A stretch of 64,000 nucleotides of DNA from Pegea sp. RAD2-039 (lineage: Eukaryota > Chordata > Thaliacea > Salpida > Salpidae): contig JAQGEQ010000158.1 of the NCBI GenBank assembly GCA_034620365.1, positions 62,001 to 126,000 of the forward strand. Direction: 5' to 3'. The notes beneath the pieces are model-generated. The model ran no database searches, was not told where the DNA came from, and saw nothing but the letters and a program-made list of their open reading frames with translations. Positions 5,719-61,801 of the stretch are shown piece by piece. Each line of letters begins with the position of its first letter. Position 1 is the first letter of the stretch. A program made the position numbers and the translations under genes.

Positions 5719-5742
5719 AGATGCAAAAGTGCATCTTCCAAA
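5719..5742 (+). promoter_or_regulatory. PSE-like dyad A
   Basis: AGATGCA-AAAG-TGCATCT then TCCAAA, perfect 7-bp arms, 71 bp before the module A start. Position matches the proximal element of snRNA/SL RNA promoters. Confidence 0.45.
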
Positions 5743-5789
5743 AGAAATCAATAAAAAGACTCTTACTTCATCAGTTAAACCGGCCTTCT

Positions 5790-5885
5790 CCCTAAGCTTT
5801 ACGGTTATATATTATCTTCATTCAATCTTACGTTTGTGGTATCGGTAAATTTTTCGATGGCTTTATTCAATCAACAATGTTATTG
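5790..5885 (+). ncRNA. Spliced-leader/snRNA-like module A
   Basis: A 96-nt module. The 5' hairpin CCCTAAGCTTTACGG has one mismatch. The leader-like 49-nt segment (5790-5838) ends TTTGTG before GTATCGG at 5839. The Sm-like AAATTTTTCG is at 5847-5856. The 3' stem is weakened because TCAATCAACA replaces CAATCGAT. A dyad lies 71 bp upstream. A and P are direct-repeat partners, 53 kb apart. Function as an RNA gene is inferred from architecture shared by all copies. Confidence 0.42.
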
Positions 5886-6600
5886 AAAATTTCATTTTTA
5901 ACTGAACTTCTATCTTAACGGTTATTTTATTTCCTTATTCTTCTCAAAAAATTGTTTTTTTGTTTTTATTTATTGTTATATAATATTAAGTTTTAATTAA
6001 GACTGAAAATTAAACAGTTTTATAGTGTAAATAGTATTTCATAAAATAGAAATTAATGGTACATTGTTCAGTGTGATTATTTAAAAAACTTTATTATTTT
6101 ACATTTTAAACTGCCAAGTAGCAGTTGAATGAGTTAAAAACAAATTAATTATCATTATTATATTATTAAAAATTATTATTATTATTATAAATTATTTAAA
6201 TATATAAATGATTTATTGAACAAATGTTGCTAATCGAATCAAAATTTTCATTTGTAAAATCCTATTTAAAAATAATATACAAACAGTTTACTAATAACTA
6301 GAGAAAAGTTTTAATAGCGTCAAACTGTTTGAACTAATCCTAAAATGAAAATAAAGAACTGAAATTAGTTAGAAATTTAACTCAAAAAGAGTTTAACAAA
6401 ACTAATTGAGCCTAATTGTTGAGTCTAACCATCAATTTGGTATCAACTGCTTATTGACATCAGCAATTATTAGCAGTCTACAAATGGTAACCTCAACAAA
6501 ACTCTCGATTAAAAATTTAAAAAAGTTGCTAAATACAATTAAAAATTTTAAAAAAGTTTTTATTGCTAATTTTAGTATTTTTTAAAAATAAACCTCTTTT

Positions 6601-6613
6601 GCGCCAAGTAGCG
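6601..6613 (-). promoter_or_regulatory. CTCF-core-like motif variant
   Basis: ACGCTACTTGGCGC on the minus strand, 'ACTTGG' variant of the core. Confidence 0.28.
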
Positions 6614-8228
6614 TAAAATAAAAATGTTGAATAACTATTTTTTTAAATTCATTTCTGCTAAAATATCCAAAATACAAAGTTTTATGATTATGCAGACTGA
6701 TAAATGTGTTTAAAATGTCTGTTTTAAAATTACTAATTTTGCTAAAACATTTTGTTTCGTAAAAATTTGTAAACATTCGGTCATTTTATCAGTTACATGT
6801 TTTTACGTCAAAAAGTAAATGTTCAACATAAATAACTTTTATGTTGCTAATTGTAGCAAATTGAAACTCAAAGTAGTCTTAGTATTTATTAAATAATTTT
6901 CGTTAAAAGTAATTCAAATTCAAACGAATAATAACAGGTTTCTTACACTACAATGGATTTTACAACCTTTTGATTTATTATTAATTGGTTACAATTTAGA
7001 GTTTGTGGGATCAATTTTAAACTAATAAATTTTGGTAAATTTTATATTGTTAAAATTTTATACTAATTTTCTTTGTACCAATATTTAAGTTACAATAAAA
7101 ATTGGTTTTCACCTTTAAGTCAAATTTTCTGTTTAAGCATTATTTGTCAACAAATAACTTAATATTAAAATTAAAAAAATATCGTACTATAGATTGATCC
7201 TACAAACTCTAGATGGCAACATAGAAAACAACGTTTATAAATAATAAAAAAGTATATCTTTCAAACCTTTCTTCCTGATAACAAATCGTTTACATAATTT
7301 TGAGTTGAAATACTTTTCAACGAAACTTCATTCAGTGAATCAGTAGAAAATTTTAAGTTTATATTTTTTTAAAAATGACAAAACACTTGATTAGTTTAAA
7401 GTTTTTTCCTTTTCATATCGTTTAATCAAAATCATTATATTTCTTTAACAAGCTCCATTTACCAAACACTTTAATATCTTCAGCATTCATTCTTTACAAT
7501 AAGATTTGACTTATATGATGGTATCGTGAGATAACACATATATTGATATAAAAACATCTTCTGATCAAAAGATTAAGAAAATTAAAAGTCATTAAGGAAC
7601 TAATTTTATGTTTTTGATGTAATTGGAAGAATATTTTGATTATTTTTGACCGACACGCAGTAGTTTTAATGTAGTTCACAGATTTTTGATCTATTTATTA
7701 TCATAGAGAGATTTAAGAGTTGTTGAAATTATAACTCGCATTTTCAATTTTTCATTTTTAATTCAAAGAAAAGATTTATGATGAAACAGTCTTTAAAAAC
7801 GTCAAATTAAGATTTTAGTTGTTTCTTACTGATCATGAAAAATTTAAAACAAATTGTTTGTATAAAAATTGTTTAGATAGCATAAAATACTCAATGAAGA
7901 AAGTAAGGAATTTAATATATGATGAATCCTAATATATTTAAAAGAAATTAAAAAGAAAATTACTAACAGCAAACAAAATTTAAAAACCTTCGAGCAATTT
8001 AGAGAAAACGCTCAATCCTGATGTTTTTATGAAAAAAAATATTAGTTTGTTCGATAGATTTTGGGCATAAAAAAACGGTTGTTTGTTAAACAATATTGAC
8101 TTAAATGCATAAAAAAAAAATAAAAGAAAACTTAAGTTATACTTTTTTACAAGGAATTTGTAAAAATCAAACAATCTCAAAAAAACACAAAATCTTATTT
8201 TATCTTGGAAAAAACTTACTTGATAATC

Positions 8229-8252
8229 AGATGCAATAATGCATCTTCCAAA
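8229..8252 (+). promoter_or_regulatory. PSE-like dyad B
   Basis: AGATGCA-ATAA-TGCATCT then TCCAAA. Arms perfect, centre changed. 69 bp before module B. Confidence 0.45.
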
Positions 8253-8297
8253 TTAATATTTTAAAGTCAAATTACGAGATAAAACGATTTCATTTCT

Positions 8298-8393
8298 CTG
8301 TAAGCTTTACGGTTATGTACTATCTTCATTTAATCTTAGGTTTGTGGTATCGCTAAATTTATCGATTGCTGTAATCAATCGATAAAGTTATTG
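8298..8393 (+). ncRNA. Spliced-leader/snRNA-like module B
   Basis: A 96-nt module. The 5' hairpin CTGTAAGCTTTACGG pairs throughout if one G-U is allowed. The donor-like GT follows TTTGTG at 8347. The Sm-like site varies to AAATTTATCG. The 3' stem is a perfect 8 bp, ATCGATTG (8361-8368) with CAATCGAT (8376-8383). Around the donor, TTAG and CTAA replace the usual TTAC and GTAA, a reciprocal change that keeps a short stem. Confidence 0.48.
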
Positions 8394-9558: not shown

Positions 9559-9654
9559 CAATAACATTATCGATTGAATAAAGCAATCGAAAAATTTACA
9601 GATACCACAAATATAAGATTGAATGAAGATAATATAAGACTGTAAAGCTTACGG
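9559..9654 (-). ncRNA. Spliced-leader/snRNA-like module C
   Basis: Minus-strand copy. Leader-like segment 9654 down to 9606, then GTATCTG. Hairpin CCGTAAGCTTTACAG has one mismatch. AAATTTTTCG is intact. The 3' stem TCGATTG/CAATCGA is a perfect 7 bp (9570-9590). The dyad lies 68 bp upstream on the same strand. Confidence 0.45.
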
Positions 9655-9698
9655 GGAAGTTGAAACGTTTATCCACTTGATCTCCGTCTACCTGTTTA

Positions 9699-9722
9699 TT
9701 TGGAAGATGCACGTTTGCATCT
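9699..9722 (-). promoter_or_regulatory. PSE-like dyad C
   Basis: Minus strand AGATGCA-AACG-TGCATCT then TCCAAA, 68 bp before module C. Confidence 0.45.
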
Positions 9723-13319: not shown

Positions 13320-13363
13320 ATTATTAGATTGTGTGCGTACCAAATCGTACGGATCTTATTTAT

Positions 13364-13459
13364 TCGAAATCTATACGGTTATATATTAACTATATTCAAT
13401 CTTACGTTTGTGGTATCGTTAAATTTTTCATGCGCCTTAATCGACTAATAATGTTATTG
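13364..13459 (+). ncRNA. Spliced-leader/snRNA-like module D, divergent
   Basis: Same 49+47 nt spacing with no indel, in a repeat context unlike the other copies. The 5' hairpin is largely lost (TCGAAATCTATACGG), but ACGGTTATATATTA, CTTACGTTTGTG|GTATCG and AAATTTTTC are kept. The 3' stem is degraded. The dyad is 68 bp upstream. Probably an older or decaying copy. Confidence 0.4.
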
Positions 13460-17069: not shown

Positions 17070-19859
17070 ATAGATTAAGTTTGCTACAATAATAAATATC
17101 TAAAACTTAAATAATCACTTTAATCAATTGCTTTAAACTATCTTGAGGATTAAAATTAGACCTGTTTTTTAGTAAATAGTCTTCAAAATGTAAGTTAAGC
17201 ACCAGAAGGTTTCATAATCTGAAATTAAAAAGAAGTATTTGAGTGAAAATTTTACAAAGAAGTTGTTTACAGTAGATGTAAAAGATATTTCGCTAGGCGA
17301 AAAATTAGGATAAATCAAATATAAAAAACTTACTTTTAAGACTGGTGTAAATTTAATTACGTAATTTTTCATTTTAACTTTTTTTATAATTTATAAATTC
17401 TATATAAAAATGGATATTTAAAAAATTAGTCATTTGTGTCAAATGCATAATAGTATAATAGTAATGTCTCATAAAAGATTATCTAAGCTTGTATTTAGAT
17501 ATTACCAGATACAAAAAAATACAAATTTTGCTGTTTAATGTTAAAAAATCGAAATAACTATTCTGCATGGTTTTCTTTTTTTTCAATTCTAAAAGTTAAG
17601 TAAAAATATTAATTTTGCTAAAAATATATACGTATCTTCTCAGCAATTAACCGTTTAGAATAAACTTTGAAAAAATTTAATCAAAATTGTTTATTGTTGA
17701 TTTAGATGTATATTGAAATAAATATTTTTCTATAAATTTGAGTTTTTGTATCTTATATTTGATTCAAAAAATTTTGGTTAAAAATATTATTCGATATCAG
17801 TGGTTAGGGAATTTGATCACTTTAAAATCTTTTTCTAGTTACTATTTAATTAATGATAAGAGAGTCATAATCAGATAAATTTTTTTGTTGTTGCAAATAA
17901 TTTTAATAGTTTGTGTTGATTACTTAAAATAGATTTGTAATTCATTTTACTTCGTATACTTCATATTACATTAAGTTTAACTTTTTGCAAATTATATTTT
18001 TAACTTTAGAAATTTAGAATTTTTACAATCAAGAAACGAACAAATATTTTTGATTTTTTATCTGATGAAAGAATAATTGTAACTTTCTTGATATTAGTCA
18101 GCTGCGTTTAGCTTTACAGAGGATTAAAAATAGAATTGTCGAAATGATATTTAATGGTTTAATGATATAAAAAATATGGATATTTGTTAATGTTTTTTGT
18201 TTTCTTATTCTGAATTCTAAATAGCAATACAAAAAACTTAATTTCTAGGAAACTTAAAATATTTAAATATAATCAAGATTTTCTACTTTTGATTTCTCAT
18301 AAGTTTAGTGCAATCTAGTGTTTGTAGGATTAAATTTAAAAGATTTATTTTTTTGTTATTTTAAGTATAAACCTTTTGTTGAAAAATAATTCACTTATTA
18401 TCAAGTTTCAAAAAAAGTTTCAATTTTTAACATTCTGTAACAATATTTACAATATGTTTATAACATCGAATTACATTTTTCACCGAAATTATTTTTTTCT
18501 TATCTTATGTATAAACCGGAAGCTCAAGTTACTGAACTTATTTACTAATTGATTATATTCGTTGAAAAGTATTTCAACTCCAAAATGGTATATACAACAA
18601 CAGTTGAGTACACGTTATAGTTTTAATATTTAAATATCCTTATTTATTTCTTTATCGTAATCTAGAGTTTGTGGCATCAGCTGAAAACAAAAAATTATTC
18701 AAGTTTTAATTATAACTTATTGCTGACAAAAACAAATTTAATGTAAAATTTTAAAAGTCATTAGAAACTTATCTTTTATTTGTATAGTTAGACTTTATAG
18801 TTTATAGTTAAGCGATGTTCTACATTTTTCTAGAAAGTTTACAATAAAAATTTTAACTTTTTGATAACTTTGTAGGATATTGAAAAATAATTCAAATTTG
18901 TTCTGCATTAATTTATTCTTCAAATTTTAATTTGTCATTTTGTAAATAAAACACTAATTAAATATAATAATCAGCTAAGCACTAGTAAAGTTTAATGTAA
19001 AAGTTTACATATTGATTAACTCAGCGAATTTTTTTAATGAATATTTTTTTATAGTGATTTTAAATGAAACAAAATTGAAAGTATATAAACATTCTAAAAA
19101 TAAATAAAGCCTTGTAAGAACTTTGTTTCAAAATGGTTTTAGCCTCATAATTTATTTACAATATCAAATATAAACAATTTTTCACTTCAGGTTTTCTCTG
19201 TCATACTTTTCCAAAATTTAAAACGAAATTTTTTACTTTAGATATAAAACTACTAATATATTATCAAATCCTTCTTTTCCTAATTTTCAGATTATGTAAA
19301 TATACAATTTGAGTTTTTATGTGAGGTAATAAAAATGGAAATTACATTGTGTAAGTTTGAAGACTTAAAGAAAAAGTTATAAAAGTGATAGAAAACTAAA
19401 ATTAAACTTTTATATAATTCTTATATTATGTTAGAATAATTTTATTTGCAAAATAATACTAAGGTTTCTTACAAAAGATTCTGAATCTTTTTGCATTTAA
19501 ATATTTTAATTGAGAAAATACTTCATAACTGACGTCATAATTGTTTGTACAGATTCATAACACCAAATATTTTAAAGGAAAGTTGGTAGTTTAAAAATGA
19601 ATGTTATTATTAGAAATTTTATTTTCATACTTTTTACGAATTTAAATTTTTATTACTTTAAAAAATTGTTGATTTAATTTATATTTTAGTAAACAAATTT
19701 ACAAAAGTATTAAATTAATATTTCAACTTTTGAAAGAAGATATTTTGGAATCGACTAAATGTCGATGACAACTTTTACTATTTTTTGAATATCTAAACAT
19801 TAATGCATTTAAGTCTCAGAAACAACAGCTTTGATATGTTTTCTAAAATGAATGATTTG
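17070..19859. other. Gene-free stretch with old repeat fragments
   Basis: Minus-strand ACTCTAG-type boxes at about 18310-18335 and 18657-18680 and a palindrome GTTGAAAAGTATTTCAAC near 18562; otherwise featureless A+T-rich DNA. No supported coding region. Confidence 0.5.
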
Positions 19860-20310: not shown

Positions 20311-23300
20311 ATTTTTGTGAAATAATATAATTCTATTTGTAGATTACAACATTGCTTTAAAGTTATTCTGATCAATAATTACAGAAACAAATTATATGGT
20401 TTTATAAACGTGTAATTAGTAATTTATTAATTATTAATGTTAAATTTGCTGCTTAATTCTATATTTTAACTAGAATTCTGAGTAGAAATACTTATTTTAC
20501 TCAAAGAAAAGTTTGTTTTCATAATTATCAAACACAATAATATTAGAAGGTTTACAACAATACAGTTTTTGTATGTCCACTTCTGTGAAAAATAATAACT
20601 CAAGATATTCAACTTACTTAATAAATGAAGTTTTGTTGATTAACAATTTAAATCCAAATTTATAATCAGCTAAAAACCTTAAATGCTGATTGAAATATTT
20701 TGTTACTTTTCATTTCTTATCAGTTTGTTGCAATCTAGAGTTTTTGAATCAAGTTTAGGAGAATATTTTCCTATAATTTTGTTGAAAAAACTTTTGTTGA
20801 CAACAAAATTATTTTGACAAAATACATTTGAAAAATGTGTTTATATATTTAACAACTCAACAAGTTTCTTGTACTCCGAAGAAAAATTTTAAATATTAAA
20901 AACACTATAAAAAAATATTTAAAAATCTTTAATATCAGAAGAAGCACTCTTAAAAATTTTGTCTATTTTTTAAAAATCGAATTACTAACTCTCAAACAGT
21001 GTTTTTCTGATAATATTTTTACAAATTAAATCTTGCTAGTAAATTTCCAAAATTTTATTTGGTCTTTTCTTTCTTATTAATTATGCAAGGAAACAATTGT
21101 AGAAATATATTTATCTAGTTTCTAATTTTTTCTGTCTTCTTCACTTCAATTTGTTAAAATATTTTTGCAAATTTTATATTACTGTAAGTTTAATGGGTGA
21201 GATTTAAATAAAATTTCTAAATTAAAAAAAAATAAAATTCAGTCAAATCCAAAAACTACTACTGAATTACTTCTCATAAATCAAAAACCAGAATTTTCTG
21301 ATAATCATTTTAAAGAAAATTAATTAGTTCTTGAACGCTTTTTAAATTCTTCAATATTTTGATAAAAGTATGTTTTTTGTCATTAAAAGGTCAGTTTGTT
21401 GTCATATTTGTCTGCAAAACTTTAAACAGTTAAAATATTAAATCCAATATTTTGCTTTTAATAGAGGAAAAGTATTTTGACTTCAATGTTTTCAAAACAT
21501 TTAAAAACTTTTGTTGAAGATCAATAATAAGAAAATCTGAAAATACTAAATCATGCTCTTGTTCTCTTCGAAGATTTCATTTCTTTTTGAGTGCACTCTC
21601 GAATAAAAAAAAAAAAAGATGTTTAATCGTTAAAATAATATCAAAGTATTATACTGTTGGCAATACTGGTAAACAAAGAAATTGATAAAAATTAGAAGAA
21701 AGAGATTTTTGCATACACAAAGTTGAACAATACTACAAAAATAAGATTGTTTACAGATAGTATATAACCGCGTAGTTCTGTGCTTACCAGTCTTTGATGG
21801 AATATTTAACTTAAAAGATTCATTTTCTTATCTATTTACTTTTCAAAGGAAAAAATTAGGTTTTGCGTTTTTTTCAGATTTCTTGTTGTTTACAAACTCC
21901 GTATAAAAATGAGATTTCCTACTAAAGTTGCTTTTTACTTTCAGTCAATTTTTCCAAATATTCAACCGAAATTTTTTCAACAAAATTGTTTTTTCTGCGT
22001 TGAAAATATTTTGTATTCTTGTCAAATAAAATGTAAAGTTTTAATAGTTCTATGTCAAATGATTTTAAACCTAAAACTAATTGAATAAAATTAAGTGAGA
22101 CATTACTGATTTCAATACCATAATTTAAAATCTCTTTTAATTTTTAATCATTATTTTGAAATATTTATCATAAATTTTTTTCATTCAAAATATGTTTTTA
22201 TTGAAATTCTTGAAACGTTTTTTGTCAGTTGAATTATAAATTTCAATAATTCTAAGACTTTTTAAAAATGAACTTTGAATAAATGTTTTCTTTTAATTAG
22301 AACTCCAAACATTAGAAAGTTACATTTTCATATCATTTAAAAAATCGTTAAATAATCCTTTGAAAACTATTGTTAACTACTTCATAAATATTTGAAATTA
22401 AAATATTTTTCCACAAAAAAGAATTAAACCAATAAAATTTGAATCTAAATTTTCTACAAATTATAGAAAAAAACATTTTCAAATCTAAATAGTTTTTAAA
22501 AACTAAATGATTGCCGAGAAGACTTTAATTAAAAATGGAAATTTTGAGTTTAAAATTGGAAAAAAAATTTCAAAGATTCTATTTGTTTCTTCAACAAATT
22601 GATACAAAGCATTAAAAAAATATAATTTCAAAAAACTTTTCAGCTGCTTTAAACTAACTAGAGGATTAAAGATAAATTTGTCGAGCTGATATTTATTGAT
22701 TTCGATTAATTTATTTCAGTAGGAAATTAGGAAATACCAATTTTGCTACATAATTTTAATTTGTTTAATTGAATTCTATGTAAAAGTACTAATTTTGATG
22801 ATAGAAAATTTATCTATTGTCTACGGTGTCTGTAACATATCTAAATTAATAAAATAAACTTTTGGACGTAAAGTATGTTTACAGAATAGTTTTTAGAGAA
22901 TTGAATATCTAGTTATTCAAAAATCAAGATTTTGTTGAAAAGCATTTCAACTACAAAATTCATTTATAAACTATCTTGTTATTAATAAACAAAATCTAGA
23001 GGTACTTTTCCTTATTTATAAACTTTGCTGCAATCTAGAGTTTGTGGGATCATGCTAAAATACGATAATTTTTCTAATTATAGTAATAAACTATTTGTTG
23101 ACAAATAATTCTCAAATAAACAGAAAATGTTAAACAGAAAGTTTGACTTAAAGGTGAAAAACAATTTTTATTATAAATTAATTATTGGTAAGGACAAAAT
23201 TAGTATAACACTGTAATTAGGTCATAAAAAAAATTTCTTACGGAGTTTTGTTTATGTCAGTTTTACATTTATTTTTACTTTGATAATTAAATTGGAAATT

Positions 23301-24329
23301 GATTAGTCGTTTAATAAAACTATAGTCGACATAACTTTAAAATTAAATATTTAAACTAAATAAACTAATAGATAATACAATATAATAAATTTTATCTTTC
23401 ACTTATTATTTTTATCTACGTAAAGTTTAGAATATACAATTACGAAAATTTATTGGTTTAAACTTGTTCCCACAAACTCTAGATTGCAACAAGGTAATAA
23501 TAAATTAAAAATTTATTAAATTATAAATATTTTATTAAATAAACAAATATTTGATATACATAGTTTTATTTTAAACTTGACAAAGAGAGCATTATTTATA
23601 AACAAAAGTTACCATTAAAATTTGAATTTGATCCCACAAACTCTAGATTACCACAATGTTATATATAGTCAAAAGTAAATTAATAATTTTGATTACTACT
23701 TACAGCTAAATAGACAGTTAATAATAATGTTGGAATTTTGGAGTTGAAATAGTTTTTCAACGAATCTGTTTATTTATTATGTCATTTATTATAAAAAAAA
23801 GTTGAGTAACTGAGTTAAGTCACTTGAGTTACCTTTTATACAAAAAATGAAGTAAAACTAATTTAGGTAAAAAGTTTATTTTATATTTAAAAACCTTACT
23901 GATAAATGACATATTATTTGAAAAAGTATCTAACTTTCAAATAATTAAGTAAAATTATTTACAGCATCACTAAAAACAAAGTTTCTTAATATAAGATTTA
24001 TATTTCGATAAATTTATAACAATTATTACTTGGGGTAAACTTTAAAACTCCGTGTTGAAATGTTCCACTTGAGTGCACAGCCAATATGACTTTTTCGAAA
24101 GTTGTTGCAATTTATTCTTTCTATCTTAATATATTTTTTATTTTATCTAGATGACATTTTTTTCTCCAATTGTTTTGACTCTGGAGGTATCATGAAGATT
24201 CAACTTTTTATAAAAATTAGTGAAACGCTTTTTGAGTTCTAACAGCAGTTTTTGCTATTTAATAGAGATATGCAAGCATCTTGAAAATGTTTTTCACATT
24301 TAATTCAAATTTTCTGTATTATTTGAAGT
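20311..24329. other. Gene-free stretch with old repeat fragments
   Basis: ACTCTAG-type boxes at about 20728 (-), 23030 (-), 23470 (+) and 23630 (+), the last two only about 160 bp apart; palindrome GTTGAAAAGCATTTCAAC near 22933; degenerate SL-like module G at 21734. Nothing coding. Confidence 0.5.
21734..21782 (-). pseudogene. Degenerate SL-like module G
   Basis: A 49-nt minus-strand match: GCGGTTATATACTATCTG...AATCTTATTTTTGTA followed by GTATTG. Hairpin, Sm-like site, 3' stem and upstream dyad are not recognisable. Confidence 0.28.
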
Positions 24330-24885
24330 AGTATTTGTCAACAAATAGTTTATTATAAAAATTATAAAAAATATCGTATTTTAGATCCCACAAACTCTAG
24401 ATGGCAACAACGTTTATAAGTAATGAAAAGTAGTTCTCTCGATCGTTTCTTCGAGATAACAAATTGTTTACATAATTTTGAGTTGAAATACTTTTCAACG
24501 AAACTTTATGGAGTGAATCAGTAGAAAATTTTAATTTTGTATTTTCTAAAAAAATGACAAAACACTTGATTAGTTTAAAGTTATTTCCTTTTCATATCGT
24601 TTAATCAAAATCATTATATTTTTTCGACAAACTTCATTTATCAAAAAGTTTAATATCTTCATTATTCATTCCTTACAATAAGATTTGACTTATAAGATGG
24701 TACCGTCAGATAACACATATATTGATATAAAAACATCTTCTGATCAAAAGATTAAGGAAATTAAAAGTCATTCGGGAACTAATTTTATGTTTTTGATGTA
24801 ATTGGAATAACATTTTGATTATTTTTGACCGACACGCAATAGTTTTAATGTAGTTCACAGATTTTAGATTTATTTATTATTATAG
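24330..24885 (+). repeat. Partial copy of the 6.3-kb repeat (no SL-like module)
   Basis: Matches about 7140-7700, from ATTTGTCAACAAATAG through the CCCACAAACTCTAGATGGCA box and the GTTGAAATACTTTTCAAC palindrome to GTAGTTCACAGATTTT, then breaks off. Confidence 0.75.
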
Positions 24886-26216: not shown

Positions 26217-27474
26217 TATAGATTATCTCGGTTACAAAAAGTAAAATTTCGTACATTAAAATAATGAAAATAGTCATTTCACATAAATTTAAAAGTTAAA
26301 ATAAGACTAAAATTCTAATAATAAAATTTTCTTGAAAATTTCAATTGATAGAAGGATGCATATTATTTGCTAAAACAGCAATCTTCTTTCAAATAAAAAA
26401 AATGATTTTTTTTTTTCTCAAGGCTTATTTACAATGCAAAGATAATTATGATTTTGTATATTGTACCGATTTTAGATCCATAATTTGAAAGATGTGTTTA
26501 TTTATCTTATCAATCAATAAGTTTTTTTGTATTAGTGAAAGAAAAAAAACCATAAATTTTCAAAGAACATTTTTATCTTGTTTTAAAATATATAATTTTA
26601 GAATTACTTTTGTGACTGTTTTTGCGCATACTATACACTTATTTGAATTACATAAACATTGTTACAAGTTTTAACTTATTGTAAGTTTAATGTGTATGTA
26701 TTAAATATTTTTAAAGAAAAAGAAATTATTTAATCGTGGATATTTTCTAAAGATTTTATAACAACTTTAAAAAAGAATTCGTTTGAACTTGATGCCACAA
26801 ACTCTAGATAGCGACAAAGTAATATATGATGAAAACTAACAATGGATTATTTAGTAAGTAATGCTTATAATTGTTTGATCCAATTTTTGAGTTGAAATAT
26901 TTTTCAACGAAATTTTGTTTAGTAAATCAATTAAATAAACTGTTTTCATTTTTCACGAGATATGACATAAAAATTTTAAGTTAAAATTTTATTTCTATTT
27001 TAAACACGTTACTTGTATTATGACAAAATATTGTTATAATATTGTTATAAACTTTTATATTATTGTTATATTCAAACCTTTGTTATATTATTAAATTTTT
27101 ATTATTTTAAGTTTGTTATTTTAACATAATGTTGAAATTTGTATTGCAACAACAAAAATTTAAAATTTTCAAATTTTTCAACATTTTTTGTTCTATTAGA
27201 AACAATTTTTATAAATCAAATGTATTTAATTTCAGCTTAGTAAAAAATCTGAATTTACAAGCTTATCACTATTAGTGTATACCTTAAAGAATTTTAAATT
27301 AGCTTTTATTAACCAAAAAAAAACAAAGTATTTATTTTATAGATAAATGATTTTAAGTAAACCAAGAATATCATTAGAACAATAATATCTTCAATAACAT
27401 TATAAATGTATTTATAAAATGTGTAACATTTAACGATGTCAGTAACAGTACATATAAAATATGATATGAGAATA

Positions 27475-29103: not shown

Positions 29104-29146
29104 AGAAGTTATATCAATTTATTTCTTATCTGGATAACAATACTAA

Positions 29147-30286: not shown

Positions 30287-30359
30287 AAATATGAAATCGT
30301 TTTATCTCGTAATTTGAAATTAAGATACTTGAAATAACTTGTCTGGATAACAATATTAA

Positions 30360-38470: not shown

Positions 38471-39255
38471 TCTTCCACAAATCTCTACCGAAAATAAGCA
38501 ACTTTCAAATTTACTGCTATTAGTCAAACTATAAGTTAGTCTGTAAACAAAAATAGATTTATAAAATGTTTAAGAAAGATTTTATAGTATTTGATTGCTG
38601 ACTAACATCCATTAAGAAAGAATTTTTTAACAATTTCTTTTATATTCTAGAATAAAGTTTCATAAAACTTGTTTTAATGAAGTTTACAATTAAAAGAAAA
38701 TTATAAATTTTTATCAAGAAGTAAGTTTAAACTAACAAGGGTTTCAAGTGTAATATTTTACAAATTTGGATTGATTGTCCTTTAGTTGTAAATTAGCTTT
38801 CATTTAATGAAAAATAGAATATGTAAAAATTAATAAGTCTGTTGGTTGTTATGCTAGAAAAGTAAACGAGATATAAAATGTTAATTTTTTTACAAAACAA
38901 ATAATTAAATTTAAATTAAAAGAGAGTTTTATTAAACACTTAAAAGTTTTTTATTGAGTAAAAAAATATTTGATATAAAATGTTTCATTTAAACCTCTAC
39001 AAATAAACTTTGTTTATGAATAACAAATTAATATTAAAATTGTAAAAACAAATTTTGTAAGCTTGACCCAACAAACTCTAGATTACGACAAAGTGATAAA
39101 TAATGGAAAATTACAAGAACTTTAACAAAATATCAATGGTTATAAAAGCCTAATTTGAAGTTAAACTTTTGTTCAACAAAAATTCTATTAGTAAAGAGAT
39201 TAATTAACTTGAGTATCTAATATATAGAAGAAGTGACATAAAAACAATTTTGTTT
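38471..39255 (+). repeat. 0.8-kb repeat, copy 2
   Basis: Direct copy of 996-1790, here without the 329-993 element on its left. Confidence 0.8.
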
Positions 39256-40258: not shown

Positions 40259-41623
40259 AATTATCAAATAAGTTTATATCATAATGAAAATAAACTAGTA
40301 ATTTAAAAATAAGTTTAATAATAATTTCAGTTGTTCAACAAAAAACTTTTATAAACATAACAGTTTTACATAATTATTAATGATTAGCAAAAAGCAAACC
40401 AGGCACTAATTTGACATCTTACAATTTTTAAGTAATCAGTTAAAGTTATTGGAATAACAAGCTTAAGTGAATTATAAAACTAACTATTTAAAGTTACAAT
40501 AAAGATTGTTTTTCACCTTTAAGTCAAATTTTCTGTGTAAGCAGTGTTTGTCAACAAATAGTATATTATTAAAATTAGAAAAAAATATCGTATTTTAGCT
40601 TGATCCCACAAACTCTAGATGGCAACAACGTTTATAAGTAATGAAAAGTATATCTTTCAAACATTTCTTCATGACAACAAATCGTTTACATAATTTTGAG
40701 TTGAAATACTTTTCAACGAAACTTCATTCAGTGAATCAGTGGAAAATCATAACTTCTTATTTTCTAAAAAATTGACAAAACACTTGATTAGATTAAAGTT
40801 ATTTCCTTTTCATGTCGTTTAATCAAAATCATTATGTTTCTTTAACAAGCCTTATTTATCAAAAAGTTTAATATCTTCAGTATTCATTCTTTACAATAAA
40901 ATTTGACTTATAAGATGGTATCGTGAGATAACACTTATATTAATATAAAGACATCTTCTGATCAAAAGATTACGGAACTTACAAGTCATTAGGGAACTAA
41001 TTTTATATTTTTGAAATAAATGGAAGAATATTTTGATTAATTTTGACCAACACGCAGTACTTTTGAAGTAGTTAACAGATTTTTGATCTATTTATTATTA
41101 TAGAGAGATTTAAGAGTTGTTGAAATTATAACTTGCATTTTCAATTTTTCATTTTTGATTCAAAGAAAAGATTTATGATGAAACAGTCTTTAATAACGTC
41201 AAATTAAGGTTTTAGTTGTTTCTTACTGATCATGAAGAATTTAAAACATATTGTTTGTATTAAAATTGTTTAGATAGCATAAAATACTCAATGAAGAAAG
41301 TAAGAAATTTAATATGTGATGAATTTTAAAATATTTAAAAGAAATTAAAAAGAAAATTACTAACAGCAAATAGAATTTAGAAACCTTCGAGCAATTTATA
41401 GAAAACGCTCAATCCTGATATTGTTATGAAAAACAATATTAGTTTGTTCAATAGATTTTGGGCAAAAAAAAACTGTTGTTTGTTAAAAAATGTTGACTTA
41501 AATGCATAAAAAAAGATTTAAAGAAAATTAGCTTACACTTTCTTAAAAAAAATATGTAAACATCAAACAATATCCAAATACACAAAATCTTATTTTATCT
41601 TGGAAATAACTTACTTGATAACC

Positions 41624-41647
41624 AGATGCAAAACTGCATCTTCCAAA
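41624..41647 (+). promoter_or_regulatory. PSE-like dyad L
   Basis: AGATGCA-AAAC-TGCATCT then TCCAAA, 69 bp before module L. Confidence 0.45.
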
Positions 41648-41692
41648 TTAGCATATAAAGTTCAAATTACGTGATAAAACAATTTCATTTCT

Positions 41693-41788
41693 CCGTAAGC
41701 TTTATGGTTATATATTATTTTCATTTAATCTTATGTTTGTGGTGTCGGTAAATTTTTCGATTGCTGTAATCAATCGATAAAGTTATTG
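41693..41788 (+). ncRNA. Spliced-leader/snRNA-like module L
   Basis: Plus-strand copy. Hairpin CCGTAAGCTTTATGG is fully paired with one G-U. The leader-like segment ends TTTGTG at 41741, followed by GTGTCGG. AAATTTTTCG is intact and the 3' stem TCGATTG/CAATCGA is perfect. Dyad 69 bp upstream. Confidence 0.48.
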
Positions 41789-42816: not shown

Positions 42817-42840
42817 AAATGCAAAACTGCATCTTCCAAA
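42817..42840 (+). promoter_or_regulatory. PSE-like dyad M
   Basis: AAATGCA-AAAC-TGCATCT then TCCAAA, 67 bp before module M. Confidence 0.43.
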
Positions 42841-42883
42841 TTAGTATTGTTATCCAGATAAGAAATAAAATGATATAACTTCT

Positions 42884-42979
42884 TCGTAAGCTTTACGGTT
42901 ATATATTATTTTCATTCAATCTTATGTATGTGGTATCGGTAAATTTTTCGATGGCTTTATTAAATCGATATAGTTATTG
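42884..42979 (+). ncRNA. Spliced-leader/snRNA-like module M
   Basis: Plus-strand copy. Hairpin TCGTAAGCTTTACGG pairs with one G-U. The segment ends TATGTG at 42932 before GTATCGG. AAATTTTTCG is intact; the 3' stem is CGAT/ATCG. Dyad 67 bp upstream. Flanked by two direct ~280-bp repeats (42510-42790, 43075-43355). Confidence 0.45.
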
Positions 42980-44280: not shown

Positions 44281-44770
44281 ATTCAATTGGCTTTTGACTT
44301 AATTTCTAAAAGTCTTCATTTATCAGCGCCACCAAACTTTTTTAAATTATCAAATATGTTATTAATATACAACAATTTTAATTCAAACTTGAAAAATATG
44401 AATTTATTTATAAACAAATATTTTCTTTAAAAGTACAAAAAGTAATTCGTTTAAACTTGACCCCCACAAACTCTAGATTAAAACAAAATTATAAATACTC
44501 AGAAATTCTGAAAAGTATCAAGGTTATTGTACTTTCGACAGACGATATTTTTGGAGTTGAAATACTTTTCAACAAAACTTTAATTAAAAGTTAAATAAAT
44601 TTAGTTTGTATTTTGTACAAAAAATAAAGTAAAAACAATTGATGTTAAATTTCTTTTACTTGTTTTGAAACATGTTACTAATAATGTAAATAAAAGTTTA
44701 CAAAAAGAAAACTTTTTTTCAACAAAAATAGTATTTCTACTTAAACTTCAACTTAAAAGGAAATTAAGGA
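44281..44770 (+). repeat. Non-coding element with ordered boxes, example 2
   Basis: Same box order as 37015-37610: GGCTTTTGACTTAATTTCTA, ACTTGACCCCCACAAACTCT, GTTGAAATACTTTTCAAC. No open frame. Confidence 0.55.
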
Positions 44771-49740: not shown

Positions 49741-52700
49741 CATTATTTTAAAACAAAATTACTAAACTTGTATTTTCTATCACAATTTTAAGAAACCTAA
49801 CAAATTTTTACGTAGTGAACAAGTCGAGAAAAGATCTTAGGTTTAATTAATTGATAATTTATTAATCATTTATATCTCGTAAAATTTTGAGTTGCTTGAT
49901 TTTGAACTAGAATGCATAAAATATAAGAGTTGATATGTAACCTTTTAATAAGGTAACTAACATTGAAACCATGAAGCAAACGAACAATATTTAGTAGTTG
50001 AGGAAGCACAAGAAATATCATCAAAAAAATTATTGAAATTTATGTGATACAGCATCACCTCTAAGGATCTCAATTATTAGAATAAGAAAATTTAAAATAA
50101 CTTCATACTGTTTGGAAAAATAAACTTTCAAATAGAATAAAAGAATAGTATTTTTAATCACACTATAGTTAAATAAATGTGTTTAAATTAATAAACCTAA
50201 ATAGATACTGATATTATACAGCCTGTAAACGCGATGATAACATTTTATTTGAGTCTTATTATGAGAAAATGAAAAGTTTTTCTTGAAAAATTGAAAAATT
50301 ATTTGATATTTTTTAACAAATCCTTTAATAAAAATTTGTTTCAGATTTTATTATAAGCACCATAAACATAATGAATTGTGGTTTAACTTATAAATTAAAT
50401 TAGATTTCACTATAGATTGCTAGTTTATTGCTAACTAGCGGAGGTTTAATTTCTTGTATACAATTTTTGTTATACATTTTGCTGTAAACGAAATAAATAA
50501 TTTATATGTTTGGTTATTGTGTTGTTTTTTTTAAATATATAATATTGTTTTTAAGTTAAAAATTATTTCAGCAAAAAAAATCTATGTTTATTTTTTTCCA
50601 AACAATTAAGATTAAATAATATTAAAAAAATAACAACAATTTGAAATTCATCTTCAGTCAACTATATTAGAAAATATTTCAAAATCTTAAAACGAAAAGA
50701 ATATAAAATTTGTAAAAGGTTAACATTCACTAATATTATCACTAACTTCCTTTCTTAATTTTACTGCAATTTTATTTTAAAGTTGATTAATTCAGTTAAA
50801 AAACAATTTTTTTTCACAATTTTAATAATCTAGGCTAATAAGCTCGACTAACTAAGATCGATATAATTTTCGGATGTTTTTAAGTGGAATAGAAAGTGTT
50901 TTGACTTTTGAACCATTTATAGAGATTTAAGGTTAATACTGGGAACGAGAAAACACTCTTCTAACGACATATTTTCTTTACTTTGAAAAAAATATTTTCT
51001 TTAACACTTTCTTCCAATTTATAAACATAATCACTAAGCTGGAAGTTCTTAAAGATACTTTTGTTTAAATATAAACCAGTTATAATAATTATATTAAACT
51101 CGATAGTTTTGACACTTGCATACTTGCAAGAACAAACCAACTCAATTAACCAATCAAAACAAACTAAAGTTGACGTAAGTCTGGTAAATAATGACTAGTC
51201 AGTCTGAAGTACATGCTCGCTAAACTCCGTTTTGCATAATTAGTGTATCTCTATTAAGCAAACAATTTGTCTAAAAACATGCAATATATTTGCATTTGAA
51301 TACTGAACAAATAATAGCAAATCACAACATATTACAAGTTCTCTAAGAAAGCTTATTACTGATTGCTGATTGACATAAGCTAGGGAGTGATAAAATTGGT
51401 ATTGAGAAAATCAAACAATGTTTCAAAAGTTCCAAGCAATATGATCTTTCACTGATTTATTGTTCTTTAAGGAATATGCAACTCCAAAGTGAAAAAAATC
51501 TTGACTAAAACCATTTCATATGAAAAGTTAATAACATTGAAATCTTTAAGCTTATATACCTTAACAAAATTATCATCTTGAGATATCCAATAAACACATC
51601 CAGGTAAATCAATTCTGTCTCTCAGAAAAGAATCAGAATTCCAATCAAATTTATGTCTTTTTAAATCATCAGGTTTTTACTGTTTTTCAAACTGTAATTT
51701 ATTTCTAAATATTTTATTTGCGAAAATGTATTGAAACATTGTATTTTGCAAAATGTAGAACTTGTTTTCTTTTATCTCGCACTTTCTTACAAACATAGAA
51801 AACTTTGATTACTTATTAAAATATTTGTTTGTTAGAAAATGTGTTATAATTGTTTAATAATGATTTTTAATTTTATTTTATTTATTCATTTTTTAAGTAG
51901 TTTAAAAATATTGAACTGGTTAGATTTTTAGCACCACAGACAACAGAATTTAACCATTTTTACATTATTTTTTTATAAATAAAAACCTTTAAATTTTGTA
52001 TTACTTTTTAACGCTGAAAAAATTTTTTAAATACCATTTTACTTAGAAAAAAAATGTCATTTGTTTAAAAGTAAAATATATATCAAGATAGAAAAGAATA
52101 AATTGAAACAACTTTCAAAAAAGTCAAATTTGATCTGCACTCAAGTGGAACATTTCAACAAAGAGTTTTTACAGTCTACCCCAAGTAAGAATTGTTATAA
52201 AATTACCGAAATGCAAATTTTATTTTAAGAAACTTTGTTTTTGAACCAACTTTAAGTTTTTATTTCCGAGTATCTTTTTTCTGAAAATATATTTTTAGTT
52301 GAGCTATTATTATTAATTATTACATTACTACTGTATCTTTGATAAATTTATTCCTAATATTTTTGATTTTAATTAGATTCAATAATTAACTAAATTTCAT
52401 TGCGTTTTAAGATTACAAAAACAAACTTTTTAATTATTTTTATATTTACCAGCTTATTAGTTCAAAAACTGTTGTTTGTTTTTTAAACAATGTGGATATT
52501 TGTACGAGTTTTTGACAAAACTAATATAAAATTTGAAAGTTTTTAGTTTGGGAAAATCTTTAGAAATACAATACATAGAGAAATAGTTTTTTATATTTTT
52601 TTTAACCTGATTAAAATAAGTTTAAATCCTGGTTCAGTGCTTTTCTCCTTACAGTGATAAATCAGTGTTTCACCCACAAACACTAGAACAAAAATACTTT

Positions 52701-53999
52701 TTATTAAGCAATTTCTTCAACAGTTTTTATGAACTTTCTTGTATTCATAAGATTCTAAAGAACTTAATTTGAAGTCGACTACGTGTCGATAAAACCTTTA
52801 CAAATATTGAAGTATTTAAAAGCATGGTAGTCTGTAAATCGTAAATTAACTTTTGCTAGATTCTGTTTCATTTATTAATAATCTTTAACTTTAGTTATTT
52901 AAAAGTGTAATCTTATCAAGCTAAAACTTCATTATTATTCACAACAACAGTATTTGATTTCATTAATTACTTGTATCTGTGAATGACAGAAAAAAATCAA
53001 AATTCAGAATTGTTTTAGAAAGAACAGAACTACTCTAAAAGTAAAATAAAATCAATTCTAAATCAAATCAAATTTTATAAAACAAGCTAGAATAAGAAGA
53101 TGAGCAAAGTGAATTCAGAAGTTTAATTTTCAAAATTATCAAAATTACGTTGCTAAGAATAAATATAAAATGGAAATCTTTATTTTATAAATAATAATCT
53201 TAAAATTTTTTTATTAATTCTTAACAATGAAAAAAATTTTAAACATATTATTTTAAATTAGAAAATAATTTTAACACAAAAAAATTAGGATTTTTTAATT
53301 TTTACTCCTTTTTTAATCTACAGTAGAAAAAAAATTTAATTAAGCTTTTTTAAGTTACAATATTTATTTTAAATGTTATGATATAAACCTTTTCCAAAAT
53401 TTATTATCTTGCACAAAATATATAAAACTATTATTTAAAAAAATGAAAAACATCATCCAAATTATATTTAAAGGTGTTTTATTTTTAAAGAAATAGTATT
53501 TATTGTTTATCATTGCTATAAAAACCCCATTTTAGAATGTAAATTATGAACTATTTCTAGAACGATTGTAGATGAAGATTTATAAAGCAAAAATACAAAC
53601 ATATGAACATTTAAAAATTGTTACTAACAGAACAATAAACATTGAATAAAATAAAAAAGTATTAAAATTTTGTTGTGTAATAGAAAGTTCAACATTTTGC
53701 TAAAAAAACTAAAAAAAAGATGAAACTGCATATGAAACAGCTTGTAGTGATACCCTTAAAAATTGTATGTAATTATTTGAAAACTAAAAAACTTTTTCAA
53801 ATCTCTTTCATCATTGACATGTTTACAAAAATGAAATAAACTTTTGACCTAAACTATTTTTATCGTATTATCTGTACATAATAGAAATTCACTGTATTTA
53901 AAGTATACACTAATTGTACTTTTGAAAATTATATTTCAACTCCAAATTATAACTTCAAGCAAATTATAACCCAAGATCATTAACTGATCATAAGATTGA
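49741..53999. other. Repeat-poor flank downstream of the zinc-finger gene
   Basis: Mostly unrepeated A+T-rich DNA, with a weak box-bearing remnant at 52660-52740 and the exon-like minus-strand frame at 51467-51673. Inverted element remnants begin near 53800. Confidence 0.4.
51467..51673 (-). CDS. Possible internal exon or exon remnant, unrecognised
   Basis: A 68-codon open frame on the minus strand has unusually protein-like composition in its first half: PDDLKRHKFDWNSDSF, then ...LPGCVYWISQDDNFVK. Immediately after that Lys (51560) comes AAG|GTATATAAG, a good 5' splice site, so the exon would be about 51560-51673 and the remaining frame to TAA at 51467 would be intron. On the upstream side an in-frame TAA (51677-51679) directly follows a CAG, so no acceptor fits cleanly; the exon may be broken or the frame accidental. 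I do not recognise the protein. Confidence 0.22.
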   Translation of the reverse strand, partial: PDDLKRHKFDWNSDSFLRDRIDLPGCVYWISQDDNFVKVYKLKDFNVINFSYEMVLVKIFFTLELHIP

Positions 54000-54539: not shown

Positions 54540-54960
54540 TTTGTTTAAACTTGATCCCAAAAACTGTAGATTGTAACAAAGTTGTTATAAACGAAAAGTT
54601 TTGAGAAGTTCTCAGATGATTGTAAACAATACATTAGAAACCCAATTTGAAGTAGAAATACTTTCAACAAAAATCGATTAAGTAAATAACAAGACTACTT
54701 TGGGTTTCAATTCTCTGCAAGTAGCAACATAAAAATGATTTATGTTGAAAATTTATTATTTTGATGGAATCATGTAACTGATAAATTGACAGAATGTTTA
54801 CAAATAAAAAAAAAAATTATAGCGAAATTAGTATTTGTAAAATCGAATTTTTAAATACATTTTTCAGTCTAAACAATTAAATGAGTTCTAAGAATAACTT
54901 TACAAAACAACAATTCAAAACTTTCATTTTCCGCTACTGGGCGCTAGATGAGATCTTTCA
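54540..54960 (+). repeat. Non-coding element with ordered boxes, example 3
   Basis: CTTGATCCCAAAAACTGTAG (about 54550), AGAAATACTTTCAAC, TGACAGAATGTTTACAAAT, then CCGCTACTGGGCGC at 54931; shows the CTCF-like motif as the last box of the series. Confidence 0.55.
54931..54944 (+). promoter_or_regulatory. CTCF-core-like motif variant
   Basis: CCGCTACTGGGCGC followed by TAGATGAG. Confidence 0.28.
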
Positions 54961-55425: not shown

Positions 55426-55521
55426 CAAGTAAAATATTTCAATTTTTCAAACAAATGCATAACTACCGACACCACAAACGTAAGATTGTATGCAGATAAT
55501 ATATAACCATATGGATTCCGA
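55426..55521 (-). ncRNA. Spliced-leader/snRNA-like module O, 3' part diverged
   Basis: Minus-strand copy. The 49-nt segment (55521-55473) ends TTTGTG then GTGTCGG, with spacing preserved, but the 5' hairpin is gone and the Sm-like site and 3' stem are not recognisable. Its upstream dyad has matched changes in both arms (AGATGTA/TACATCT), still 69 bp away. Confidence 0.33.
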
Positions 55522-55566
55522 AAAGAGCAAGTTATCAACGTTCGTTATTTTTTCAAGGGAAATTAT

Positions 55567-55590
55567 TTTTGAAGATGTACTTTTACATCT
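55567..55590 (-). promoter_or_regulatory. PSE-like dyad O, compensated arms
   Basis: Minus strand AGATGTA-AAAG-TACATCT then TCAAAA, 69 bp before module O. The C-to-T change in one arm is matched by G-to-A in the other, preserving the symmetry. Confidence 0.4.
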
Positions 55591-59121: not shown

Positions 59122-59145
59122 AGATGCGAAAGTGCATCTTCCAAA
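59122..59145 (+). promoter_or_regulatory. PSE-like dyad P
   Basis: AGATGCG-AAAG-TGCATCT then TCCAAA, one arm mismatch, 71 bp before module P. Confidence 0.42.
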
Positions 59146-59192
59146 AGAAATCAATAAAAAGACTCTTATTTCATCAGTTAAACCGGCCTTCT

Positions 59193-59288
59193 CCCTAAGC
59201 TTTACGGTTATATATTATCTTCATTCAATCTTACGTTTGTGGTATCGGTAAATTTTTCGATGGCTTTATTCAATCAACAATGTTATTG
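59193..59288 (+). ncRNA. Spliced-leader/snRNA-like module P
   Basis: Direct-repeat partner of module A, with the same one-mismatch hairpin CCCTAAGCTTTACGG, donor-like GTATCGG at 59242, AAATTTTTCG and weakened 3' stem. Dyad 71 bp upstream with one arm change (AGATGCG). Confidence 0.42.
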
Positions 59289-60003
59289 AAAATTTCATTT
59301 TTAACTGAACTTCTATCTTAACGGTTATTTTATTTCCTTATTCTTCGCAAAAAATTGTTTTTTTGTTTATCTTTATTGTTATATAATATTAAGTTTTAAT
59401 TAAAACTGAAAATTAAACAGTTTTATAGTGTAAATAGTATTTCATAAAATAGAAACTAATGGTACATTGTTCAGTGTGATTATTTAAAAAACTTTATTAT
59501 TTTACATTTTAAACTGCCAAGTAGCAGTTGAATGAGTTAAAAACAAATTAATTATCATTATTAAATTATTAAAAATTATTATTATTATTATAAATTATTA
59601 AAATATATAAATGATTTATTGAACAAATGTTGCTAATCGAATCAAAATTTTCATTTGTAAAATCTTATTTAAAAATAATATACAAACAGTTTACTAATAA
59701 CTAGAGAAAAGTTTTAATAGCGTCAAACTGTTTGAACTAATCCTAAAATGAAAATAAAGAACTGAAATTAGTTAGAAATTTAACTCAAAGAGAGTTTAAC
59801 AAAACTAATTGAGCTTAATAGTTGAGTCTAACCATCAAATTGGTAATCAACTGCTTATTGACATCAGCAATTATTAGCAGTCTACAAATGGTAACCTCAA
59901 CAAAACCCTCGAATAAAAATTTAAAAAAATTGCTAAAACCAATTCAAAATTTTAAAAAAGTTTTTATTGCTAATTCTAGTATTTTTTAAAATAAACCTCT
60001 TTT

Positions 60004-60016
60004 GCGCCAAGTAGTG
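60004..60016 (-). promoter_or_regulatory. CTCF-core-like motif variant, decayed
   Basis: CACTACTTGGCGC on the minus strand, the partner of 6601 with one further change. Confidence 0.22.
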
Positions 60017-61636
60017 TAAAATAAAAATGTTGAATAACTAATTTTTTAAATTCATTTCTGCTAAAATATCCAAAATACAAAGTTTTATAAATATGCAGAC
60101 TGAAAAATGTGTTTAAAATGTCTGTTTTAAAATTACTAATTTTGCTAAAACATTTTGTTTCATAAAAATTTGTAAACATTCGTTCATTTTATCAGTTACA
60201 TGTTTTTACGTCAAAAAGCAAATGTTCAACATAAATTATTTTTATGTTGCTAATTGTAGCAAATTGAAACTCAAAGTAGTCTTAGTATTTAGTAATTAAT
60301 TTTCGTTAAAAGTCATTCAAATTCAAACGAATAATAACAGGTTTCTTACACTACAATGGATTTTACAACCTTTTGATTTATTATTAATTGGTTACAATTT
60401 AGAGTTTGTGGGATCAATTTTAAACTAATAAATTTTGGTAAATTTTATATTGTTAAAATTTTATACTAATTTTGTTTGTACCAATAATTAAGTTACAATA
60501 AAGATTGTTTTTCACCTTTAAGTCAAATTTTCTGTTTAAGCAGTATATGTCAACAAATAATTTAATATTAAAATTAAAAAAATATCGTACTATAGATTGA
60601 CCCTACAAACTCTAGATGGCAACATAGAAAACAACGTTTATAAATAATAAAAAAGTATATCTTTCAAACATTTCTTCCTGATAACAAATCGTTTACATAA
60701 TTTTGAGTTGAAATACTTTTCAACGAAACTTCATTCAGTGAATCAGTAGAAAATTTTAAGTTCCTATTTTCTAAAAAAAATTGACAAAACACTTGATTAG
60801 TTTAAAGTTATTTCCTTTTCATATCGTTTAATCAAAATCATTATACTTCTTTAACAAGCTCCATTTATCAAATATTTTAATATCTTCAGCATTCATTCTT
60901 TACAATAAGATTTGACTTATAAGATGGTATCGTGAGATAACACATATATTGATATAAAAACATCTTCTGATCAAAAGATTAAGAAAATTAAAAGTCATTA
61001 AGGAACTAATTTTATGTTTTTGATGTAATTGGAATACCATTTTGATTATTTTTGACCGACACGCAGTAGTTTTAATGCAGTTCACAGATTTTTGATCTAT
61101 TTATTATTATAGAGAGATTTAAGAGTTGTTGAAATTATAACTCGCATTTTCAATTTTTCATTTTTGATTCAAAGAAAAGATATATGATGAAACAGTCTTT
61201 AAAAACGTCAAATTAAGGTTTTAGTTGTTTCTTACTGATTATGAAGAATTTAAATCATATTGTTTGTATAAAAATTGCTTATATAGCATAAAATACTCAA
61301 TGAAGAAAGTAAGTAATTTAATATATGATGAATCCTAAAATATTTAAAAGAAATTAAAAAGAAAATTACTAACAGCAAACAGAATTTAGAAACCTTCGAG
61401 CAATTTATAGAAAACGCTCAATCCTGATGTTCTTACGAAAAACAATATTAGTTTGTTCGATAGATTTTGGGCACAAAAAAATGGTTGTTTGTTAAAAAAT
61501 GTTGACGTAAATGCATAAAAAAAAGATTAAAAGAAAATTTAAGTTATACTTTTTTACAAGGAATTTGTAAACATCAAACAATCTCAAAAAAACGCAAAAC
61601 CTTATTTTTACCTTGGAAAAAACTTACTCGACAACC

Positions 61637-61660
61637 AGATGCAAAATTGCATCTTCCAAA
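61637..61660 (+). promoter_or_regulatory. PSE-like dyad Q
   Basis: AGATGCA-AAAT-TGCATCT then TCCAAA, 69 bp before module Q. Confidence 0.45.
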
Positions 61661-61705
61661 TTATTATCTTAATTTCAAATTACGAGATAAAACGATTTCA
61701 TTTCT

Positions 61706-61801
61706 CCGTAAGCTTTACGGTTATATATTATCTTCATTCAATCTTAAGTTTGTGGTATCAGTAAATTTTTCGATGGCTGTAATTAATCGATATAGTTATT
61801 G
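61706..61801 (+). ncRNA. Spliced-leader/snRNA-like module Q
   Basis: Perfect 5' hairpin CCGTAAGCTTTACGG (61706-61720). Segment ends TTTGTG at 61754, followed by GTATCAG. AAATTTTTCG is intact; the 3' stem is short (CGAT/ATCG). Dyad 69 bp upstream. Counterpart of module B in the direct 6.3-kb repeat. Confidence 0.45.

Follow-up and report, generated by a model that had tools for sequence, protein, structure and literature searches.

Promoters of the small nuclear RNA (snRNA) type normally serve a limited set of RNAs, and the PIWI-interacting RNAs (piRNAs) of nematodes are the striking exception. The payload of the type-1 piRNAs (21U) is not conserved, and we know of no Sm site or hairpin in their genes. 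A 5' base-pairing segment, a Sm site and a 3' hairpin are combined in the U7 snRNA and in the viral HSURs, which occur in few copies and have defined targets. Here we analyse a stretch of 64,000 nucleotides, called the window, from the salp Pegea sp. RAD2-039 (contig JAQGEQ010000158.1, C287 in our numbering; C287:62001-126000), in which a first-pass annotation had read eleven repeated modules of 96 nt and a partial twelfth as spliced-leader or snRNA-like RNA genes. Judged by its sequence, the module is mostly the core promoter of a predicted small RNA gene running in the opposite direction. The genome of 387 contigs and 105.7 Mb probably contains a clustered repertoire of several hundred such units, predicted to be transcribed by RNA polymerase II (Pol II) into U7-sized Sm-class RNAs with variable 5' payloads. 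These units have the layout of U7 and the HSURs, but number hundreds and differ in their 5' segments.

The nearest published parallel is the piRNA genes of nematodes with their SNAPc-derived promoters. The cited parts of one study describe piRNA promoters whose motif derives from that of SNAPc, which may be densely clustered and which are accompanied by a downstream pausing signal (PMC6436959). The individual snRNA-type motif of each gene, the clustering and the free payload of the type-1 genes were all found in the units; unlike those genes, the units carry a TATA box, a Sm-like site and a 3' hairpin. The SmY RNAs of nematodes resemble them as small Sm-class RNAs with a hairpin 3' of the Sm site. 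Twelve SmY genes and an extensively conserved first stem-loop are given for C. elegans in the passages cited (PMC11229312). A first stem-loop of this type was not found in the units: the 40 nt before the Sm-like site were near chance identity, and no stem was enriched at -40..-14 or -25..+1. The LU snRNA of Drosophila is a Sm-class RNA with a PSEA/PSEB promoter and a Sm site, and differs, as far as the cited sections describe it, in being a single gene with a pseudogene, 116 nt long, with conserved 5' and 3' stem loops (PMC4053861). In the accessible portions of the open-access literature we recognised no prior description of a set like the present one, which does not amount to saying that none has been published.

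On the opposite strand the module reads GATACCACAAACGTAAGATTGAATGAAGATAA-TATATAA. It contains CCACAAAC, which resembles the proximal sequence element (PSE) of the animal's own snRNA genes, and TATATAA at a gap of 20 nt, the value of the own U2 genes. A very similar element, DUSE (A/T)CCCA(C/T)AA, precedes many small RNA genes in a different group of organisms, the Class I RNAs of Dictyostelium, for which no Sm site is known to us. Rfam models gave 19 U2 and 15 U6 matches in the salp genome, 13 of the latter over the cut-off. Promoters of 12 U2 and 12 U6 loci were compared, and U6 locus L039, having no such upstream element, was dropped, which left 23 promoters with 12 distinct PSE sequences as a training set. 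In 10 of the 12 U2 loci CCACAAAC stands at -57, and in nine the TATA box follows at a gap of 20 (-29); the exceptions are L050 (element at -56) and L051, both with no TATA under the pattern, and L047 (a variant PSE missed by the pattern). Both motifs were matched in five U6 loci, four of them with the element at -62/-63 and a gap of 24-25, the fifth (L040) with TATA frames at 23, 25 and 27. In U6 locus L029 the pattern matched the element but not a TATA box; L034-L038 have, in place of the usual element, CTAACAAAC, which the pattern missed. Five U5 genes have CCACAAAT, and TATATA follows 18-20 nt later, as counted by eye. The own Pol II snRNA genes U2 and U5 share with the units a PSE of the form CCACAAAC/T and a TATA box about 20 nt on. 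Among 92 PSE sites with a Sm-like site, the first TATA-like match lay at a gap of 16-22 in 89 and at 25-27 in three, and the spacing of the units is, by sequence, that of the Pol II class, as in U2.

The promoter resemblance is not a matter of chance. In the window, a position weight matrix built from the 23 U2/U6 promoters alone scored 26 sites at 12 bits or more; ten simulated sequences averaged 0.9. Across the genome the exact pattern CCACAAAC-N18-22-TATAWA was matched 725 times and its reversed control 39 times; these counts and the pattern counts given below are matches and not loci, because overlapping frames of one site are counted repeatedly. The first-pass annotation seems to have named the right kind of gene, snRNA-like, and its suggestion of an SL-type promoter came close; the strand and the part of the gene have to be revised. 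Its 49-nt leader ends within the PSE, GTTTGTGG being the reverse complement of CCACAAAC, and its Sm-like AAATTTTTCG sits upstream of the PSE on the gene strand.

Downstream of the promoter, a T-rich Sm-like site and a hairpin follow in a fixed order. This region is AATTTGGA-AGATGCA-nnnn-TGCATCT in class A, the class of the modules, and AATTTTGGA-GTTGAAA-nnnn-TTTCAAC in class B; the Sm-like sites of the own U2 and U5 genes are AGTTTTTGGA and AGTTTTTG. Counted from the predicted start, the Sm-like site begins after 22-46 nt (29-41 nt in 77 of 85 units), and the hairpin ends after about 53-64 nt in ten units that were folded with 3 nt added each. The predicted RNA of this length differs from U2 and U5 in its variable 5' part and in carrying no spliceosomal sequence. 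Several unrelated hairpin sequences occupy the same place, those of classes A, B, C and D, and AACTGA elsewhere on C287. By motif and predicted structure the units have the Sm site and the following 3' stem-loop of Sm-class RNAs. A loose search yielded 155 PSE and TATA sites in 271 kb of sequence; 48 of the 92 perfect hairpins of at least 7 bp near them (range -40 to +239) fall 90-109 nt after the PSE start, with a smaller pile of 13 at 160-169 nt. Perfect stems of at least 6 bp were present in 82 % of 22 distinct class B sequences (2 % when shuffled) and in 37 % of 30 class A sequences (1 % when shuffled); other windows reached 0-17 %, and it is in class B that the hairpin exceeds them most clearly. 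In the class A stem 87.4 % of 231 cells are paired, and three of the seven pairs show a double change.

Genome-wide, the PSE, the TATA box and TTTKGAR at the right distance were matched together 369 times, against one match of the reversed control; with the allowed distance moved 50 nt further, 11 matches were left (reversed 3). Without the TATA requirement there were 759 matches against 91 in the control. The several hundred matches of the units compare with the 19 of the own U2. Many of them are clustered: among the first 100 of the 369 listed, at least 31 lie on C102, at least 27 on C92 and at least 16 on C64, and further units were found on C286 and C287. The same order emerged when the search started from the hairpin. 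A snRNA-type PSE lay 78-112 nt upstream of 33 among 58 Sm-like sites followed by a perfect hairpin of at least 6 bp, and neither of two control windows held one for any of the 58; duplicated sites are non-independent, and class B accounts for 28 of the 33 positives, as class A PSEs get low scores from the U2/U6 matrix. A matrix trained on 34 PSEs lying outside the window detected 50 PSEs within the 64 kb. TATA or TAAA followed in 41 of them, and 31 were complete, having a Sm-like site and a hairpin (G-T pairs allowed) besides TATA; ten simulated sequences gave 3.8 PSEs, 0.9 with TATA and 0.0 complete units. The hairpin has at least 6 bp in 24 of the 31 complete units, and six more PSEs have a Sm-like site and hairpin without TATA.

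The modules themselves were confirmed. All eleven lie where they had been reported and align ungapped to a 100-nt module query, and the twelfth (55521, - strand) is partial, matching the query over 57 nt only. A search of the own genome gave 156 first-look candidates; 40 were scored and all 40 matched (E 5.5e-44 to 7.4e-36), a frequency far above chance. The reported lack of indels holds for the eleven modules of the window and breaks down beyond it, since 5 of 41 near-full copies in the sampled DNA, window included, have a gap. In 255 non-independent duplicate pairs of both classes, gap openings per site in class A were 0.0002 in the promoter core, 0.0016 at -60..-10 and 0.013-0.019 in the flanks; the class B core (0.011 vs 0.022 and 0.0075) was not clearly lower.

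Conservation is uneven along the unit. Diverged copies, defined by an upstream flank less than 50 % identical (749 class A and 695 class B pairs, non-independent), were selected by the PSE core and by the Sm-like hexamer with the next 1-2 bases. Their flanks and the stretch from the start to the Sm-like site showed an identity of about 0.27-0.42, with chance at about 0.33 for this composition. The PSE core reached 0.90-0.93. Class A had an identity of 0.72 over the TATA stretch (+30..39) and of 0.74 and 0.56 over the first and second ten positions counted from the Sm-like site; the corresponding class B values were 0.51, 0.89 and 0.85. Recent duplicates were compared as 35 one-use pairs (20 A, 15 B), with substitutions expressed as a ratio to the flank. 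The ratio was 0.40 (0.19-0.65) for the PSE, 0.65 (0.35-0.93) for the TATA box and 0.63 (0.38-0.93) for the hairpin, with 0.35 in class B, and the payload changed at the flank rate (1.06, 0.70-1.45). A flank-anchored comparison that required no motif retained the exact CCACAAAC in 335 of 422 duplicates, and PSE and hairpin were again slower than the flanks, all pairs being non-independent. An apparent excess of payload substitutions in non-independent pairs (0.10 and 0.16 vs 0.077 and 0.084 in the flanks) was dropped in view of the one-use ratio.

The resemblance and spacing of the promoter, the order of Sm-like site and hairpin, the uneven conservation and the genome-wide number were computed directly; transcription and Sm binding of the units we infer. 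Several observations weigh against a repertoire of Pol II-transcribed Sm-class RNAs. Expression and start site are taken over from U2 distances, a sharp initiator sought at the predicted start was not seen, only a weak A/T pattern, and the element of U6 locus L040 likewise stands at -57, so that the distance to the start separates the Pol II and Pol III classes imperfectly. About 42 of the 155 loose PSE and TATA sites are expected from the reversed control, and only 92 of the 155 have a match to the Sm-like expression. Part of the conservation of PSE, TATA and Sm-like site is built in, because these motifs served to choose the sites. In recent duplicates the interval of the Sm-site ratio includes 1 (0.75, 0.49-1.03) and the class A hairpin is barely constrained (0.91), its covariation being modestly above shuffles, 28 of 500 of which reach the score. 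Seven of the 31 complete window units have a hairpin of 5 bp only, and a neutrally drifting payload is also expected of non-functional copies.

An alternative view is that the units are mostly dead snRNA-derived repeats, old Sm-RNA genes spread by segmental duplication, of which a few are live and the rest decay. The window is full of long duplications: 3001-9341 and 56429-62719, both carrying units, are 93 % identical. The payload drifts with the flank, the class A hairpin is hardly held, and the PSE at 13413 lacks a Sm-like site with hairpin. Still, PSE, Sm-like site and hairpin are common to copies whose upstream flanks are less than 50 % identical, and different hairpin sequences stand at the same place; we regard decay of most copies as unlikely. 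Duplications on the kb scale, direct and inverted, are 89-93 % identical, a further example being 5203-9341 and 33398-29283. Rather improbable is a set of piRNA-like precursors, driven by PSEs and ended by an early polymerase stop, in which the Sm-like T-tract and hairpin act as a pausing or termination signal only. Such loci are expected to be clustered and PSE-driven, with a payload changing at the flank rate, as here. However, the downstream element matches the own U2 Sm site with a hairpin at a fixed distance after it, and piRNA loci without a TATA box are described for Plectus sambesii in the cited part of that work (PMC6436959). A match to Col_cuticle_N (nematode cuticle collagen) was not found here, a weak argument, since the control genomes had none either. 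Searches for Chitin_bind_4, likewise weak because the control genomes were silent as well, and for COX1 also gave no match.

Genes of RNA polymerase III, of the U6 type, would account for the TATA box and for the T6-T8 some 15-20 nt past the hairpin in some class A units. The gap has the U2 value, unlike most U6. Runs of at least four T fall inside 81 of 85 predicted transcripts, hairpin included, and 62 of 85 have one in the part up to the Sm site, which is evidence against Pol III; such an origin appears very improbable. Spliced-leader RNA genes on the strand of the first-pass annotation are scarcely credible. There is a rough order of hairpin, leader, GT and T-tract, and the anatomy described is kept in part only, because the 5' hairpin is fully paired in just 16 and the 3' stem in 22 of 31 distinct ungapped copies. 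A U2/U6-type promoter on the other strand accounts for the same bases, and a spliced leader is unsupported because the 5' part of the predicted RNA is unshared (the payload is near chance identity between diverged copies), a GTRAG donor occurs in 2 of 85 payloads (bare GT in 67) and the Rfam scan of the window gave no family at gathering score. An Rfam scan at E<=5 gave as its only match MicF on a module, with 29 bits against a gathering score of 79 and an E value of 4.2, which was taken as chance. A coding exon on the opposite strand, raised by synonymous-looking changes and by an open stretch that ends in TAA right at the TATA box (by eye), can practically be dismissed, as this TAA is the TATA box itself and variability has no clear three-base period (0.061, 0.075 and 0.071 by position).

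Ten of the twelve modules are followed by a Sm-like site and a hairpin of 6-7 bp. The class A unit of module 5790 extends over 5719..5839 (- strand), with the PSE at 5839, a TATA gap of 20, Sm-like TTCTTTTGGA and the hairpin AGATGCA-CTTT-TGCATCT. From PSE to hairpin, the units of modules 8298 and 9654 occupy 8229..8347 (-) and 9605..9722 (+); the former has TACATAA instead of TATATAA, hence no TATA was called. Module 13364 (13360..13459, -) has its PSE at 13413 and TATATAA, and a Sm-like site with hairpin was not called downstream. The unit of module 30286 (30237..30383, +; PSE at 30237) carries Sm-like AATTTGGA and an imperfect hairpin, AGAAGCA..TGCATCT, placed by hand and reaching to about 30383; the scan itself called a weaker, nearer site of 5 bp (30332). 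The diverged unit of the twelfth module (55472..55590, +) has the hairpin AGATGTA-CTTT-TACATCT, whose stem shows a double change. The matrix scan further placed class A units at 29054..29170 (+, module 29103), 32758..32875 (+, module 32807), 41624..41742 (-, module 41693), 42817..42933 (-, module 42884), 59122..59242 (-, module 59193) and 61637..61755 (-, module 61706), and a unit with an A-type hairpin at 151..259 (+).

Class B is represented by the unit at 18561..18674 (-), with Sm-like ATTTTGGA and the hairpin GTTGAAA-TACT-TTTCAAC. Units of this class were detected by the matrix scan on the + strand at 23634..23756, 24388..24499, 26795..26908, 37329..37448, 40606..40717, 44464..44573 and 54557..54664 and on the - strand at 22934..23047 and 31295..31406; those at 1604..1717 (+) and 39069..39181 (+) have a variant hairpin. 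TATA is absent at the usual place in the class B units at 7200..7321 (+), where a TATA-like element lies further on, and at 60603..60724 (+). Class C consists of a unit at 33602..33714 (-), with the hairpin AACCGCT-AAGT-AGTGGTT (one G-T pair) after TTAATTTTGA, and a second copy at 35673..35785 (+) with no TATA called. The class D unit at 52674..52790 (+) has the hairpin GTCGAC-TACGT-GTCGAT after TTAATTTGA, again with no TATA called.

The GC content is 21.9 % in the window, 20.9-27.5 % in sampled pieces of C287, C286 and C275 and 21.4-34.3 % at the U2/U6 loci, and one open reading frame of the window reaches at least 150 amino acids. An array of PSE-TATA loci, each followed by a TTTKGAR site and with a period of about 1.3 kb in the first part, lies at G000:C12:503954-511947. 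A part of it shows a different predicted RNA with a possible 5' hairpin TCAATCCCGATTGGGA, which may be a further Sm-class RNA or a genuine candidate for a spliced leader. PSE-Sm matches without a strict TATA number 11 in G000:C46:772576-818526 and seven in C22:261714-370720. Paralogous C2H2 zinc-finger genes with HTGEKP arrays are found at 48375-49172 of the window and at L015:4790-5512, on the same contig as units, and long open frames of a non-LTR retroelement (family named by eye) at L014:2363-6359 on C287. A motif, CCGCTAGATGGCGC / GCGCCACCTAGCGG, which we presume to be CTCF-like, recurs by eye near 25593 of the window and in L025 and L026.

In the repertoire of Pol II-transcribed Sm-class RNAs that we favour, SNAPc would bind the PSE (CCACAAAC..) and TBP the TATATAA 20 nt beyond it, and RNA polymerase II would initiate about 57 nt downstream of the PSE start. 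The transcript would be a short capped RNA with a variable 5' stretch of 22-46 nt, the Sm-like site (AAUUUUGGA) and the 3' hairpin. Sm proteins may assemble on it to a U7-sized ribonucleoprotein (RNP) with the variable 5' end exposed, and the loci in the window would multiply by segmental duplication. Capped RNAs of about 50-65 nt starting 57 nt after each PSE are predicted. As the 5' ends of U7 and the HSURs pair with target RNAs, a diverse set of base-pairing RNAs is our leading, still tentative guess at the function. More speculatively, an animal apparently outside the nematodes may keep several hundred Sm-class guide RNAs, with one promoter type, one RNP scaffold and freely diversifying 5' guides in dedicated clusters. 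If true, the snRNA machinery would here have been recruited independently to a defence or regulatory system built on RNAs of diverse sequence, and a second large, clustered set of PSE-driven loci, with constant RNP-forming ends and free 5' parts, would show that this machinery can be made to produce diverse small RNAs repeatedly.

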